Assembly: GCA_938017975.1 (NCBI GenBank)
Contig: CALIKQ010000032.1
Coordinates: forward strand, 1 to 64,000
DNA: 64,000 nucleotides
From: an uncultured Pseudomonadales bacterium
GTDB taxonomy: Bacteria; Pseudomonadota; Gammaproteobacteria; Pseudomonadales; Azotimanducaceae
Direction: 5' to 3'
The position numbers were made by a program, and so were the translations under genes. The first letter of the stretch is position 1. Each line of letters begins with the position of its first letter. Positions 911 through 6,804 of the stretch are shown here, in pieces. The notes beneath the pieces were generated by a model. The model had not been told where the DNA came from. It was given only the letters and a program-made list of their open reading frames with translations, and ran no database searches.

Positions 911-2272
911 ATGAACGATTACAAAGTTGCCGACATCAACCTTGCAGATTATGGCCGAGCTGAAATCTCCCTCGCTGAAGCCGAAATGCCAGCGTTGATG
1001 AAGCTCCGGGCAAAATACAAAGCTGAGCAGCCTCTGGCGGGTGCAAAGATTTTGGGTTGTATCCACATGACGATCCAGACTGCCGTCCTGATCGAAACTT
1101 TGGTTGAGCTGGGCGCGGATGTACGCTGGTCTTCTTGCAACATCTTTTCCACCCAAGACCACGCTGCGGCCGCCATTGCGGCCAGCGGCATTCCTGTATT
1201 TGCCTGGAAAGGTGAGACCGAGGAGGAGTTTTTCTGGTGCATCGAGCAGACGATTTTGTCAGACGGAAAACCCTGGGCGGCCAACATGATTTTAGATGAC
1301 GGCGGTGACTTGACCGAAATGGTGCACAGCAAATATCCCGAAATGCTGGATGCCATCCATGGCATTACTGAGGAAACCACAACCGGTGTTCACAGATTGC
1401 AAGAAATGCTCAGAGACGGCGAATTAAAAGTACCCGCCATCAACGTCAACGACTCCGTCACTAAGTCAAAGAATGACAATAAGTACGGCTGTCGACATAG
1501 TCTCAACGACGCAGTCAAACGCGCGACGGACATGTTAATGGCAGGGAAGAAAGCACTCGTCATCGGCTATGGCGATGTGGGTAAAGGTTCCGCGCAAAGC
1601 CTTCGGCAAGAGGGCATGATCGTTCGGGTCACAGAGGTCGATCCTATTTGTGCCATGCAAGCCTGTATGGATGGCTACGAAGTAGTCTCTCCCTATGTCA
1701 ACGGCATCAACACTGGAAAGATAGAAGACATCGACCATCGTCTGATGGCAGGCACCGACCTGATCGTCACTTGCACCGGCAACGTGCACGTTTGCGACGC
1801 CAACCTTCTTTCAACCGTCGCCAAAAATGCAATCGTTTGTAATATTGGACACTTCGATACTGAGATTGATACGCAATTCATGCGAGACAATTGGCGCTGG
1901 GAAGAGGTGAAGCCCCAAGTCGATAAGGTTTTCAGAAGCGATGATCCAACAGATTACATCCTGCTGCTCTCAGAGGGACGTCTCGTGAATCTTGGTAATG
2001 CCACAGGACACCCATCGCGAATCATGGATGGCTCTTTTGCAAATCAGGTGCTCGCGCAAATGTACTTATTTGAACGCGCTTGGGCGAGTCATGACATCAA
2101 GCAAAGACAGCCGGTGACCGTTGAGGTGCTGCCTAAAGCGCTGGATGAAGAGGTGGCTTTGTACATGGTAGAAGGCTTCGGCGGTACGATCACTCGACTG
2201 ACTCAAAGTCAGGCCGATTACATCAATGTTCCAACCGATGGCCCCTTTAAACTCGAGGAGTACAAGTACTAG
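911..2272 (+). CDS. ahcY: S-adenosylhomocysteine hydrolase
   Basis: 453-residue adenosylhomocysteinase, which splits S-adenosylhomocysteine into homocysteine and adenosine using bound NAD. The NAD-binding loop [10 protein letters not shown] and the C-terminal [11 protein letters not shown]-like segment ([16 protein letters not shown]) are intact, and the length is normal for bacterial AhcY. I chose ATG 911 because AAAGGAA lies just upstream and the protein then begins [16 protein letters not shown], the usual AhcY N-terminus. Much longer in-frame extensions would run into the preceding gene. It follows the SahR-like gene by 40 bases, too short for an SAH riboswitch, so control is probably by that repressor at an operator outside the window. 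Confidence 0.97.
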
Positions 2273-2300
2273 TTCAGCCCCTAGAAATAAAGTTGGACTT

Positions 2301-2338
2301 GCGCTCGAAGTCGAGGACAATAGCCTCGACTTCGGCGC
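2301..2338 (+). other. Strong hairpin between ahcY and the thioesterase gene
   Basis: A 10-bp perfect stem (2307-2316 with 2324-2333) closes a 7-base loop. It extends outward through a C-G pair, a G-T pair and, after one bulged base, three more G-C pairs. No T-run follows, so it is not a standard intrinsic terminator. It ends only 9 bases before the ATG at 2348, and no Shine-Dalgarno sequence is visible between them. It may stabilise the 3' end of ahcY mRNA or limit translation of the next gene. Confidence 0.6.
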
Positions 2339-2347
2339 AGCATCCCC

Positions 2348-3211
2348 ATGAAACAACCCCTCGCAGACCTCCTAGAATTACTCGATCTAGAACAAATTGA
2401 AATGAATCTGTTTCGCGGCGTTAGCCCCGATGAGGGTTGGCAGCGCGTCTATGGTGGCCAGGTCATCGGCCAAGCCCTAGTCGCCGCTTATCGGACGGTG
2501 GAAGACCCAGAGCGTATTGCTCATTCTTTACATGGTTATTTTCTCAGACCAGGAGATACACAATGTCCAATTCTCTATCAGGTGGATCGGATTCGGGATG
2601 GACGAAGCTTCACCACGCGACGGGTCAAGGCCATTCAAAAAGGTGAGGCCATTTTCAGCATGTCCGCTTCTTTCCATGTCAAAGAAAAAGGACTTGAACA
2701 TCAGGTTGCAGCTCCTAGCACCCCTGAGCCAGGTGATTGCAGAAGCGAAGCCTCACTGATTGAGGAATATTGCAGCGCCTACCCGGACGAAACAAACGAT
2801 CTGCTAAAGCGGGCGCGCCCCATCGAAATGCGCTACGTCAACCCAGTCAACGAAATCAATCCAGAGCCCCTCCCGCCCGAGCAAAGCGTTTGGATAAGAA
2901 CCATCGATACCATGCCAGATGACTTACGTTTGAATCAGTGTCTATTAGCGTACGCCTCTGACATGACGCTGATTGATACAAGCTATCGACCCCATGCCGT
3001 GAATTGGCGACAAGCCAATTTTCAAGTCGCGAGCCTAGACCATGCGATGTGGTTTCATCAGCCCTTTAAAACAGATCAATGGTTGCAGTACTATCAGGAT
3101 AGTCCGCACTCAGGCGGAGGGAGAGGTTTCAGTAGAGGCACTTTTTTCGATCAAAGCGGCACACTCGTTGCCTCCTGCGCACAAGAAGGGTTGATTCGAT
3201 TACATCCATGA
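2348..3211 (+). CDS. tesB: Acyl-CoA thioesterase II
   Basis: 287-residue TesB-type double hot-dog thioesterase, which hydrolyses acyl-CoA to free acid and CoA. Recognisable segments are the N-terminal VYGGQVIGQALVAA, the middle LHGYFLRPGD and DGRSFTTRRV, and the C-terminal hot dog with MWFHQPF and the SGGGRGFSRG loop. Length matches the family. The ATG has no clear ribosome binding site and sits just after a strong hairpin. The stop overlaps the next start by four bases (ATGA, 3208-3211), so the selenoprotein gene downstream is translationally coupled. Confidence 0.93.
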   Translation: MKQPLADLLELLDLEQIEMNLFRGVSPDEGWQRVYGGQVIGQALVAAYRTVEDPERIAHSLHGYFLRPGDTQCPILYQVDRIRDGRSFTTRRVKAIQKGEAIFSMSASFHVKEKGLEHQVAAPSTPEPGDCRSEASLIEEYCSAYPDETNDLLKRARPIEMRYVNPVNEINPEPLPPEQSVWIRTIDTMPDDLRLNQCLLAYASDMTLIDTSYRPHAVNWRQANFQVASLDHAMWFHQPFKTDQWLQYYQDSPHSGGGRGFSRGTFFDQSGTLVASCAQEGLIRLHP

Positions 3212-4062
3212 ACATTAAATACATACAGCGAACCAGAGATTATTATCGAGCCCAAGGGTTCAAGCACGACTACAGTTGGGCCGACAATCGCGTGATCCCT
3301 TTTTCAAGACCCAAAAAACCGCTAAATGAAGCAAGACTCACAATCATTACCACCGCGGTCGTTGAGCCAGACATCCCGAAACCGGTTCGATCGGCTCAGA
3401 GCTATTCACTCACGGCACTGCCCGACCATCTCGACACCGCAGAATTGTCCTGGGATAAAACAACAACCCACACCCATGATCGTGAAAGTTATTTCCCGAT
3501 TAGGGCGTTGACTTCGAAAGTTGAGGATGGAAGCCTCGGCAGTCTTGCGCCAAGGTTTCATTTCGTTCCTACCGAATACAGCCAGCGGCATACGCTCACC
3601 CAAGACGCACCATTGATTAAAACCCACTGCCAGGAAGATTCAGTTGACCTAGCAATCCTCATTCCGATCTGACCCGTCTGCCATCAAACCGTCAGTTTGA
3701 CGGCGCGCACACTTGAAGATGCGGGAATATCAACAGTTGTCCTCGGATCAGCCCTCGATATCCTAGAGAAAGCCGGTACCCCGAGAATCGTGTTTAACGA
3801 TCTACCTTTGGGCAATCCCGTTGGTAAACCTTTCGACAGAGCTATGCAGATGCGTTCAATTGAAGCGGCGCTCAGGCTCTTATACTCAGCGGAGGTCGGT
3901 GGCACGGTAGAAACGCTTCCCCATCGTTGGTCCCAGCAAGAAGATTGGCGTCGCAATTTCTTAGAAGTAAGGCCCGAGCATCAGGCCCAACTTCTGAGCC
4001 TTGGCGAAGAAAATCGCAAGCAGCGTTTAGAAAACAAACGTCTAGGACTGTTCAGACCTTAA
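3208..4062 (+). CDS. GrdB/PrdB-like selenoprotein read through an in-frame UGA (Sec155)
   Basis: The frame that starts at ATG 3208 meets TGA at 3670-3672 and then continues without interruption to TAA at 4060-4062. Reading TGA as selenocysteine gives one 284-residue protein with the redox motif U-P-V-C-H-Q at residues 155-160. The sequence on both sides belongs to one family, the glycine/sarcosine/betaine/D-proline reductase selenoprotein B type. Upstream is the segment GSLGSLAPRFHF. Downstream are TARTLEDAGISTVVLGSA and DLPLGNPVGKPFD. A SECIS-like hairpin follows the UGA. The known clostridial relatives reduce amino acid derivatives anaerobically, and the role of short stand-alone relatives in aerobic marine bacteria is not established. 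The gene is ATGA-coupled to tesB in the ahcY operon. No selA, selB, selD or tRNA-Sec lies in this window. The alternative is a nonsense-mutated pseudogene, which the hairpin and the UxxC motif argue against. Confidence 0.88.
3679..3705 (+). promoter_or_regulatory. Bacterial SECIS element for Sec155
   Basis: Just after the UGA (3670-3672) the RNA can form a stem of 4 pairs, one A-C mismatch and a perfect 6-pair apical stem (3684-3689 with 3695-3700). The loop is the five bases CGUCA at 3690-3694. The loop starts 17 bases after the UGA and has G as its second base, which fits the usual bacterial SECIS rules (apical loop about 16-37 bases after the UGA, a G in the first two loop positions). The hairpin lies wholly inside the coding sequence. 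Confidence 0.8.
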
Positions 4063-4118
4063 GTCACCGCATTGCATTTAAGACCCAGCCAAACCAGCCA
4101 TTCACCGTCGCATCCTAT

Positions 4119-4149
4119 CCCTTAAGCCAATCAAGACTTGAGGGTTTTT
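4119..4149 (+). terminator. Intrinsic terminator of the ahcY-tesB-selenoprotein operon
   Basis: An 8-pair stem (4119-4126 with 4137-4144, one G-T pair) with a 10-base loop is followed directly by five T residues. It lies 57 bases after the selenoprotein stop codon and overlaps the last codon of the convergent M20 gene by two bases. It ends the plus-strand operon, which supports co-transcription of everything upstream. Confidence 0.75.
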
Positions 4150-5491
4150 AACGCAAAGGCATCAGTGCCTGAAGCGCGGTCACGGTTCCGAGCACACCAG
4201 AGATCACCGACGACCTTGGCTCGATCTCAAATAGCGGGGAGTGATGCGAGGGTAGGCTTTCTCCTCGATCGGCAAAGGCTTTGAACCGTGCTTTGGTTGT
4301 TCCTCCGACTGCAAAATAAACACTTGGAATGTCCGGTTCCTGAGTGAAAAACGGGAAATCCTCACCGCCCATACCTTCTCGTTCGTAGGTGGTTATCATC
4401 GCCGTCCCTAGACGTTTCTCCCATGCCATGACGACCCGTGCAGCCACGTCTGGATCATTAGCGGTCACAGGAACGCCGCCCTTAAGTTCAATCCTCGGCA
4501 ATCGATCATCAGGCAAACCACCGGCACGTCCTATGTTGATTGCAATTCGCTCGATTGCTGACAATAACTTCGCCCGGGTCGCTCGCGAATCAGACCGCAC
4601 CGTCAACTCAAGCCTTGCCTCTTCACCAATCACGTTGCGCTTGTTACCGGCATTAAAGACACCAACAGTCACCACCCCTGGCTCTCTGGGCGACAACTCT
4701 CGAGATACAATCGTCTGCAAAGCAAGCACGATTTGGGAACCAATCACAACAGGATCCCGGCCTCGATGCGGGCTTGCACCATGCGCGCCAATGCCGGGCA
4801 CAATGATATCCAGCGAATCAACAGCGGAGTAGGCAGCCCCGGTTGAAGCAAAGAGAAGACCTGCCTCGAGATCGGCGGTGACATGAAATGCCATCGCGTA
4901 GTCTGGCGTACCAAAACGCTCCCATATTCGAGCGGCACGCATCGCTTCGGCACCGGAGAGTTTCCATTCCTCAGCAGGCTGAGCGATCAACATCAAGGTC
5001 CCAGCCCAAGTTTCGCGGTGGGCTGCCATATAACGCGCGGTCCCGATCAGGGAGGTCATGTGGACGTCGTGACCACAAGCATGCATCACGGGAAACATTT
5101 CCCCTTCGCTATTTTGCTGCATCACCGTTGAAGCATACGGCAACTGCGTTAACTCTTTGACAGGCAGCGCATCCATATCCGCTCGCATCATAACGAGTGG
5201 TCCATCACCATTGCGCAAAAGCGCGACAACACCCGTTTGCGCTATCCCGGTATGAACTTCGTAGCCTTCTTTCTTGAGGCGCTCGGCAATCAGCGCTGCG
5301 CTTTCGACCTCAACAAAGGAAAGTTCTGGATTCGCATGAAAATGCTCGAATAGCGCTTTGAGTTCACTGTCGTAATGCTGCTCAACCTCTCCTTGAAGAT
5401 CCTGAAAAGGCTCAGCCAACAATGATAAGGGCGTTAACATCAATCCCAGAGCAAACCCGCGCCATAACCAACTTTTTTTTATCCGTCTCAT
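4148..5491 (-). CDS. Exported M20 family metallopeptidase/amidohydrolase
   Basis: M20D-type zinc hydrolase of the hippurate/N-acyl amino acid hydrolase kind, 447 residues from the ATG at 5491. A TTG 14 codons further up is possible but leaves the signal peptide internal. Residues 1-27 are a signal peptide (basic start, hydrophobic core, cleavage near LLAEP). Metal and catalytic motifs are intact: HACGHDVHM, PAEEWKLSGA, and a C-terminal HHSPLFEIE. The dimerisation domain sits in the middle. It probably cleaves N-acylated amino acids or short peptides in the periplasm. It is the last gene after two exported amidohydrolases, about 50 bases from the previous stop. Confidence 0.88.
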   Translation of the reverse strand: MRRIKKSWLWRGFALGLMLTPLSLLAEPFQDLQGEVEQHYDSELKALFEHFHANPELSFVEVESAALIAERLKKEGYEVHTGIAQTGVVALLRNGDGPLVMMRADMDALPVKELTQLPYASTVMQQNSEGEMFPVMHACGHDVHMTSLIGTARYMAAHRETWAGTLMLIAQPAEEWKLSGAEAMRAARIWERFGTPDYAMAFHVTADLEAGLLFASTGAAYSAVDSLDIIVPGIGAHGASPHRGRDPVVIGSQIVLALQTIVSRELSPREPGVVTVGVFNAGNKRNVIGEEARLELTVRSDSRATRAKLLSAIERIAINIGRAGGLPDDRLPRIELKGGVPVTANDPDVAARVVMAWEKRLGTAMITTYEREGMGGEDFPFFTQEPDIPSVYFAVGGTTKARFKAFADRGESLPSHHSPLFEIEPRSSVISGVLGTVTALQALMPLR

Positions 5492-5544
5492 CACCTGATT
5501 GATGCCCTCCCTTCCAATGCTTTTCAAATACAACTCGCCTAAAA

Positions 5545-6804
5545 CTAATCCGTCGTTTCAAGATTGAGAACTTCCAAATATCGTTTTGCCAAAAGGTCTT
5601 GGCGTGTTTCTAGATTGACCCAATCACCGTCAACCATGACGACAACAGGCGCTGAACTGACTTCTAGTGGGTCGCCACTCCAAATGACCAAATCTGCCTT
5701 CGCGCCAAGTTCAATCTTGCCAAGCCCCTCCAAGCCCCAAATTTCTGCGGGGACTGACGTCATTGCCAAAAGCGCTTGCTCCCAGGCGAGTCCGTGCGCC
5801 ACTGCAACACCAGCTGCTTGAGTTAAGGATCTAAACTCGGAATAAGGAGAGCCCGACATCAAAGCAAAACGGACACCTGACACACTCAGCAAGCGCGCCT
5901 GGTCCAATCGTGCACCCAGCCGGTCAAAATTTTGCGGCAAATTATCGAGCGCATTGATCAAAACAGGGATGTCATGTGCGAGGAGTATCTCGGTCACCTT
6001 CCAAGCCTCCGCCACACCCGCTAGAACCAATCTCACATCAGCAAAAGCGGTAAACGCGTCAACAACATTGCGGATGTCGGCCGCACGATCGACATGGACA
6101 ACAAGCGGCATTTTTCCCGACAGAACCAGGACAAGCGCCTCTAAATCATCGTGCCCGATCTCAAAAGGACGAAGCCTGTTGCTGTCATAAGCCTCGCGCT
6201 GACGCTCAAATCGGGCAGCTTCCTTCAGCGCATCAACGGCCTGGCTGAGCGCCCGTGATCGGGACCCTCCTGCATGTCTACGGTCCCGCTCTCTAAGATA
6301 TAAGTGCAATGCGTTGTCTGCACGCTGCAAAAAATTGCTGCCCCGAACAAACCGCACCGCCGCACTTTGCCCGGCAAAGTTACTGTCCCCGGGCTCGGGC
6401 ACAACGATCCCACGAGTGATGCCATCGTTTGAGGCCAGCGGTATCAATGTCGAAGCCGAATTGAGCGCTAAAGCGACCTGAAAGCCAGCCGCCATTTCAT
6501 CCCCTGAGACTTCTCCGTCATAACTCACGCCCAATCCACTCACCTCTGCTAAGCCAATCGTCGTTGCCGAATCAATCAATCCCGCTGTAATTGGCCGCGC
6601 CATCGCGTCAAAAGTTCGTGTTTGGTTGGTTGCGATTAAATTCACACCAATTTCAACAATGCGTCCACCCTCGATGCGCAGATCGCGAATCTCCCCCGTT
6701 TCGCCATTATCCGTCACCAGCCGAGCGCCTTTAATCAAGACATCCGCCAAGCAAAAACCCGAGCCCGTCAATAACACCAGCATTAAGACAAAATTTTTCA
6801 TCAA
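5545..6804 (-). CDS. Exported amidohydrolase-fold protein without metal-binding residues
   Basis: 419 residues with a signal peptide ending near FCLA. The overall layout (N-terminal small beta domain, TIM-barrel core, C-terminal GKIELGAKADLVIWSGDPL segment) is that of imidazolonepropionase-like amidohydrolases. The usual HxH after PGxID is replaced: the segment reads AGLIDSATTIGLAEV, with Ala80 and Thr82 in the histidine places. The later histidine and aspartate positions also look lost (AGVAEAWKV and LMSGSP against FHHAVEAYKI and VHSDSA in the upstream paralogue). It overlaps that paralogue by 4 bases. Its ribosome binding site GGAGGAG is made by the paralogue's last codons. I infer a non-catalytic or altered partner subunit. 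Confidence 0.8.
   Translation of the reverse strand: MMKNFVLMLVLLTGSGFCLADVLIKGARLVTDNGETGEIRDLRIEGGRIVEIGVNLIATNQTRTFDAMARPITAGLIDSATTIGLAEVSGLGVSYDGEVSGDEMAAGFQVALALNSASTLIPLASNDGITRGIVVPEPGDSNFAGQSAAVRFVRGSNFLQRADNALHLYLRERDRRHAGGSRSRALSQAVDALKEAARFERQREAYDSNRLRPFEIGHDDLEALVLVLSGKMPLVVHVDRAADIRNVVDAFTAFADVRLVLAGVAEAWKVTEILLAHDIPVLINALDNLPQNFDRLGARLDQARLLSVSGVRFALMSGSPYSEFRSLTQAAGVAVAHGLAWEQALLAMTSVPAEIWGLEGLGKIELGAKADLVIWSGDPLEVSSAPVVVMVDGDWVNLETRQDLLAKRYLEVLNLETTD

Follow-up and report, generated by a model that had tools for sequence, protein, structure and literature searches.

The window, that is, the whole 64 kb stretch of DNA that was analyzed, carries on its plus strand a PrdB-like selenoprotein gene (3208-4062; 284 codons and a TAA stop), which was recognized by reading of the frame, family searches and comparison with homologues. 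The only interruption of this frame is a TGA at 3670-3672 (+), codon 155 of 284, which is most likely read as selenocysteine (Sec) and in the alignment opens the motif U-P-V-C-H-Q. Behind it lies a SECIS-like hairpin (3680-3704, +) identified by folding and covariation. Family searches placed two further genes upstream, ahcY for adenosylhomocysteinase (662-2272, +) and tesB for acyl-CoA thioesterase II (2348-3211, +), and the stop codon of the latter overlaps the start codon of the selenoprotein gene as ATGA. The family match of AhcY begins at residue 86-87, and the listed ahcY frame probably starts too early. An initial annotation of this DNA had placed the gene in an ahcY neighborhood, as the family searches bear out, and had read two apparent genes as one frame with a single TGA at the redox position of a U-P-V-C-H motif. 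Both of these readings were confirmed, the UGA being conserved at that position in the homologues.

Homologues were identified in 55 of 97 genomes, the window's own included, with 145 matches in total. Exactly one in-frame TGA was present in 143 of these matches, the two exceptions being a Cys copy (in G040) and a terminal fragment whose 44 matched residues stop short of the UGA site. With identical sequences counted once, as in the counts of the hairpin core below, the alignment had U at site 155 in 64 of 81 rows, four of which come from two annotated clostridial PrdBs, and C in the other 17. The initial annotation had proposed that homologues be aligned for U or C at this position, and since all 81 rows have one or the other in a single column, an unrelated residue at the UGA, which it had held would speak against Sec, was not found.

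Selection on the two sides of the UGA was also compared. Against its nearest relative (83% identical), a pair in which synonymous sites are near saturation, the window gene had a dN/dS of 0.060 upstream and 0.058 downstream of the UGA; synonymous sites were saturated in most of the other pairs that include the window gene. Four other close pairs, L076 and L011 being counted as one because they give identical numbers, had values of 0.103, 0.116, 0.119 and 0.035 upstream and somewhat higher values of 0.141, 0.190, 0.137 and 0.094 downstream. Constraint behind the UGA, as estimated from these sequences, is strong, though slightly weaker than before the UGA in the four other close pairs.

In a survey of 398 genomes across the phylum, 16 (that of the window, G000, included) had matches at E <= 1e-10. 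The matches were stop-free in 14 of the 16, and TGA copies were present in G000 and G230; the stop-free copies that were read carry Cys. A tree with PrdB as outgroup had Sec at its base and three label changes, two of them forced by well-supported branches, although this was a tree of the quick kind, without bootstrap and with long-branch warnings, and drawn mostly from a single bacterial family. It held 79 of the 81 rows (L110 and L127 were dropped); the Cys copy L104 was absent from it and one clostridial PrdB was in it twice. Most simply, Sec would be the older state, with Cys having replaced it in a few lineages.

The hairpin, GCC-A-UCAAAC-CGUCA-GUUUGA-C-GGC, has a five-pair core (3685-3689 with 3695-3699) closed by the loop CGUCA (3690-3694). 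A hairpin with this loop behind the TGA had been described in the initial annotation, and this part of the description stood; the 17 bases that it gave as the distance from the TGA to the start of the hairpin, however, separate the TGA from the loop and not from the stem. Folding of the single sequence gave no signal (z = -0.67, with folds as good or better in 48 of 200 shuffles). The fold alignment comprised 14 of the 16 rows, L089 and L090 being left out for unreadable letters. Across 36 distinct sequences, an eight-pair structure was paired in 95.8% of 288 cells, and four of the eight pairs had changed on both sides, in 22 such cells. The covariation score was matched by none of 500 shuffles, slid versions of the structure paired in 21-39%, and RNAalifold recovered the same hairpin unaided. 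Much of the variation is synonymous, in that the Gln codons CAA/CAG pair with the Leu codons TTG/CTG; a single mismatch, CAA with CTG, occurs among the 36 sequences.

The core was also scored in copies outside those used to define the hairpin. Of 20 further Sec copies, 17 had all five pairs and three had four; the 22 further Sec rows had included two clostridial PrdBs, with one and two of the five core pairs, which were set aside. The complete core was found in none of 16 Cys copies, which kept four pairs in three cases, three in 11 and two in two. These Cys rows are mostly close kin, and since they come from few lineages they represent two or three independent losses of the hairpin, not sixteen. 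A model of the hairpin, trained with the window sequence itself, had one match at E <= 1 in the window (3670-3714). The search of positions 2000-6000 against Rfam gave no match at E <= 10, a result that says little on a SECIS of such a kind. The evidence for the hairpin is comparative, and points to a SECIS kept by compensatory changes.

The genome to which the window belongs contains part of the machinery for Sec decoding. ARAGORN identified a tRNA-Sec with the anticodon tca on contig C24, the Rfam tRNA-Sec score of which (45.8 bits) is just under the cut-off of 47, with other places in the genome at 30-44. A selD gene is found near it (TIGR00476, 269 bits; cut-off 125). This selD (L009:8814-11051) is fused behind a pyridine-nucleotide oxidoreductase domain and has a CRGC motif; the fusion scored 352 bits with TIGR03169 (cut-off 310) and 439 bits with the "SelD-related fusion" model, under the cut-off of 700. 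Ndh-SelD fusions are common in marine data, according to the available text of PMC2398784. The initial annotation had proposed that this machinery be sought in the rest of the genome, and while tRNA-Sec and selD were present, neither selA nor selB was found in the window's own assembly, which is 96.5% complete. On the face of it, this is the absence that the annotation had said would count against Sec decoding.

Among the 97 genomes, an over-cut-off selB was identified in 52; 45 had both a homologue and selB, 10 a homologue only, seven selB only and 35 neither (Fisher 1.3e-10, a value confounded by kinship, p being 0.04 within family f1 alone). The 10 of 55 homologue-bearing genomes that were without an over-cut-off selB have listed completeness of 62 to 96.5%. 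Several of them are fairly complete (G000, 96.5%; G055, 95%; G003, 93% in 8 contigs; and G054, 93%), and their lack of selB therefore stands as a result against the Sec reading.

The absence of selA and selB from the window's assembly would be expected if the species had lost both genes, in which case the window gene would be cut at its UGA and be becoming a pseudogene. We consider such a loss very unlikely, based on the surroundings of selAB in congeners. There selA-selB (as in G001) has a pyridoxal-enzyme gene on one side and a transport-type cluster on the other. For the pyridoxal-enzyme flank, only relatives of 28-34% identity were found in G000, G003 and G004 and none in G006; the transport-type flank was absent from all four of these genomes, and the relatives of an outer flanking gene in G000, G003 and G004 were all distant. 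Since the neighbors that selAB has in congeners are also missing, we took the absence of selAB as assembly dropout, and an assembly gap in G000 is likely, although not proven. In the congener G014, the two selAB flanks are at the ends of two contigs, and selAB is expected to fall in the gap between them. In addition, G003 clusters with congeners that have selB and away from G000 and G004, so that two losses of selAB would be needed. The tRNA-Sec and selD have been kept, and the comparison of G000 with G004 showed no relaxed selection. A sequencing error, or an ordinary stop codon separating two genes, has next to no probability as an explanation of the TGA, as nothing beyond the mechanical list of open reading frames speaks for it, whereas the single in-frame TGA recurs in nearly all matches from many assemblies and the hairpin covaries. 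Together, the conservation of the UGA, the covariation of the hairpin, its broken core in Cys homologues, the purifying selection behind the UGA and the presence of tRNA-Sec and selD support the Sec decoding in a GrdB/PrdB-like protein that the initial annotation had proposed. Judged by these sequence comparisons, the window gene is most likely one gene in which UGA 155 is read as Sec.

In G081, which belongs to another family, a paralogue of the window gene (L073:4933-9331) is the immediate neighbor of selA-selB, an arrangement that perhaps represents a transferable Sec module.

The window protein matched the PrdB model TIGR04483 over almost its whole length (positions 23-235 of 238; 1.1e-22), with 80.7 bits versus an equivalog cut-off of 300. 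The score with the GrdB type model TIGR01918 was 21.7 bits versus a cut-off of 65.45, and the Pfam search gave no match to PF07355 (GRDB) at E <= 1. Plasmid-borne PrdBs annotated in clostridia and enterococci were 25-28% identical to the window protein. One of these, on a Terrisporobacter plasmid where prdB stands with prdA, has a Sec that aligns with Sec155. The homology with the clostridial D-proline reductase PrdB (TIGR04483) extends over most of the length, and the two share the Sec column and the xxCH behind it, but the window protein has a longer N-terminal stretch and a C-terminal tail, and HFVPTEYS where clostridial PrdB has HIGFMGGGG. PF09338 (PrdA/GrdE) was found in none of five genomes searched (G000, itself incomplete at 96.5%, G001, G003, G307 and G230), while the positive control, the plasmid with prdA, scored over the cut-off. 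The comparison supports placing the window protein in a branch of the PrdB superfamily which, in the genomes tested, is not accompanied by the pyruvoyl subunit PrdA/GrdE. Nearer homologues, at 40% identity over 89-95% of the query, are encoded on Roseomonas and Haematobacter plasmids as "Glycine/sarcosine/betaine reductase selenoprotein B family protein"; these have Cys for Sec and an incomplete hairpin core, and their records give no further function.

The predicted structure of the window protein was confident (pLDDT 87). Foldseek gave no match at E <= 0.001 among 1024, and the best VIA-align score (Z 7.7) was to LacI-type folds, a value of the size that common arrangements give. The best 50 VIA-align matches listed contained no thioredoxin fold, which excludes nothing. 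A single PDB sequence match, at E 1.7, was taken as chance.

Proteins of this kind have been reported from the ocean before. The initial annotation was right that such Sec proteins have been seen in marine metagenomes, and according to the available text of those reports they are listed there as proline reductase PrdB. The Sargasso Sea study of 2005 counted 42 Sec and one Cys prdB proteins and assigned them the function of D-proline reductase (PMC1088965, available text), and the GOS study of 2008 counted 235 Sec and 110 Cys PrdB proteins with the motif UxxC (PMC2398784, available text). Proline reductase is given as 6.4% of marine selenoprotein genes in the portion of PMC9402790 at hand. By these partial descriptions, the marine proteins resemble the window protein in the UxxC motif, the PrdB label and Sec being commoner than Cys; the difference is that D-proline reductase function was given to the 2005 proteins, whereas PrdA was not found in the window genome. 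The term "PrdA" is absent from the main text of PMC2398784, and no remark on a missing partner subunit was seen in the available parts of the marine selenoproteome papers. Our literature search, within the text accessible to it, found no paper that addresses what a lone PrdB-like protein does. As the marine counts are already published, the kind is known and it is the function label that is doubtful.

As no fold was clearly matched, we infer the reaction of the window protein from its UxxC motif and from the chemistry of GrdB and PrdB as described in the available text of PMC13188914. The comparisons support decoding of UGA 155 as Sec by Sec-tRNA and SelB, guided by the hairpin just behind it. 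As nucleophile, the selenolate of Sec155 would then attack a small carboxylate or the CoA ester of one, with departure of the leaving group; Cys158 would resolve the Se-bound intermediate, and thioredoxin or another cellular thiol would reduce that intermediate. We favor a thiol-dependent reductive enzyme that would act on a carboxylate or acyl-CoA. The overlap of the tesB stop with the start of the gene, seen within the genus, fits a role in the breakdown of acyl-CoA or unusual acids better than one in amino-acid fermentation. For the type of chemistry, though for nothing more, a lead comes from FarB of a fluoroacetate-reducing Cloacibacillus, a GrdB relative proposed to cleave the carbon-fluorine bond, which works with FarE in an organism treated as a dehalorespiring anaerobe (PMC10838667, available text).

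Two other functions were weighed against this chemistry. As a true subunit of D-proline reductase, the function under which the marine selenoproteome papers list such proteins, the window protein would be expected to match TIGR04483 over its length and to share the Sec column of annotated clostridial PrdB, as it does, and the score with that model is higher for a paralogue from its own genome, yet also under the cut-off. However, the score of the window protein is far below the equivalog cut-off, identity to annotated PrdB is low, PF09338 was found in none of the five genomes with a working control, and many genomes hold several paralogues. We therefore regard this function as highly improbable. 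A general selenoprotein that reduces thiol-disulfides or peroxides through a UxxC of the thioredoxin type, with no specific carbon substrate, is a more serious alternative but still an unlikely one. Pro156, Cys158 and His159 of the UxxC motif were invariant in the 16 rows of an alignment and the gene contexts are varied, both of which such a function would accommodate. Against it, the characterized relatives cleave small carboxylic substrates (PMC13188914, available text), and invariant residues were also numerous far from the motif in the same alignment, which suggests a specific substrate site. On balance, it is probable that the window gene encodes a selenoprotein with Sec155 from a PrdA-less branch of PrdB, whose Sec would act as a nucleophile on a carboxylate or CoA ester.

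The contexts of the gene were compared at 60 loci, which are mutually dependent. Upstream ahcY was present in seven and tesB in six, all of them near relatives; other contexts, assigned partly by eye, had glycolate-oxidase-like genes, acyl-CoA synthetases, CoA-transferases, MATE/MFS transporters and dioxygenases. No constant partner gene was found across the loci and no neighbor was convincingly enriched. With 63 of 67 distant stretches used as the control, CoA-transferase III accounted for 5 of 85 nearest genes versus 2 of 63 distant ones, AMP-binding for 4 versus 1 and MFS for 6 versus at most 1, the last figure being an upper bound from the first 25 of 50 families listed. CoA-transferase family III is very abundant in three genomes of the same bacterial family (84 matches in G034, 65 in G030 and 50 in G045).

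The initial annotation had considered the organism probably aerobic, and this is supported for the window's own genome by one gene for haem-copper (cytochrome) oxidase subunit I (541 bits). We take the host lineage to be marine. According to the available text of PMC13188914, selenoproteins are seldom retained in aerobes; a bacterium that combines a catalytic selenolate with a cytochrome oxidase is at odds with this view. We speculate, with somewhat less than even confidence, that the ocean "proline reductase" selenoproteins are a separate family of single-subunit, PrdA-independent, Sec-based reductive enzymes in bacteria that respire oxygen, each genome having several paralogues that serve different acyl-CoA or carboxylate substrates. 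If the family works without PrdA, the ocean label would be a misnomer and a common reaction would be undescribed. Cys versions in which the hairpin is broken occur in nature, so that the benefit of Sec over Cys can be tested in one fold.

Two paralogues were observed in the window's own genome. A second PrdB-like selenoprotein (contig C41, L071:5654-6640), about 32% identical to the window gene product, has FMGGIYS, nearer to the clostridial loop, and at 152 bits with TIGR04483 is nearer to true PrdB, although under the cut-off; by eye, it adjoins sodium:solute symporter-type and dioxygenase-like genes. The third is a longer, GrdB-like frame on contig C1 (L072:5331-6530), open over 401 residues with one TGA, which has a different stem, CGCGC/GCGCG, and adjoins TauD-like and hydrolase-like genes.
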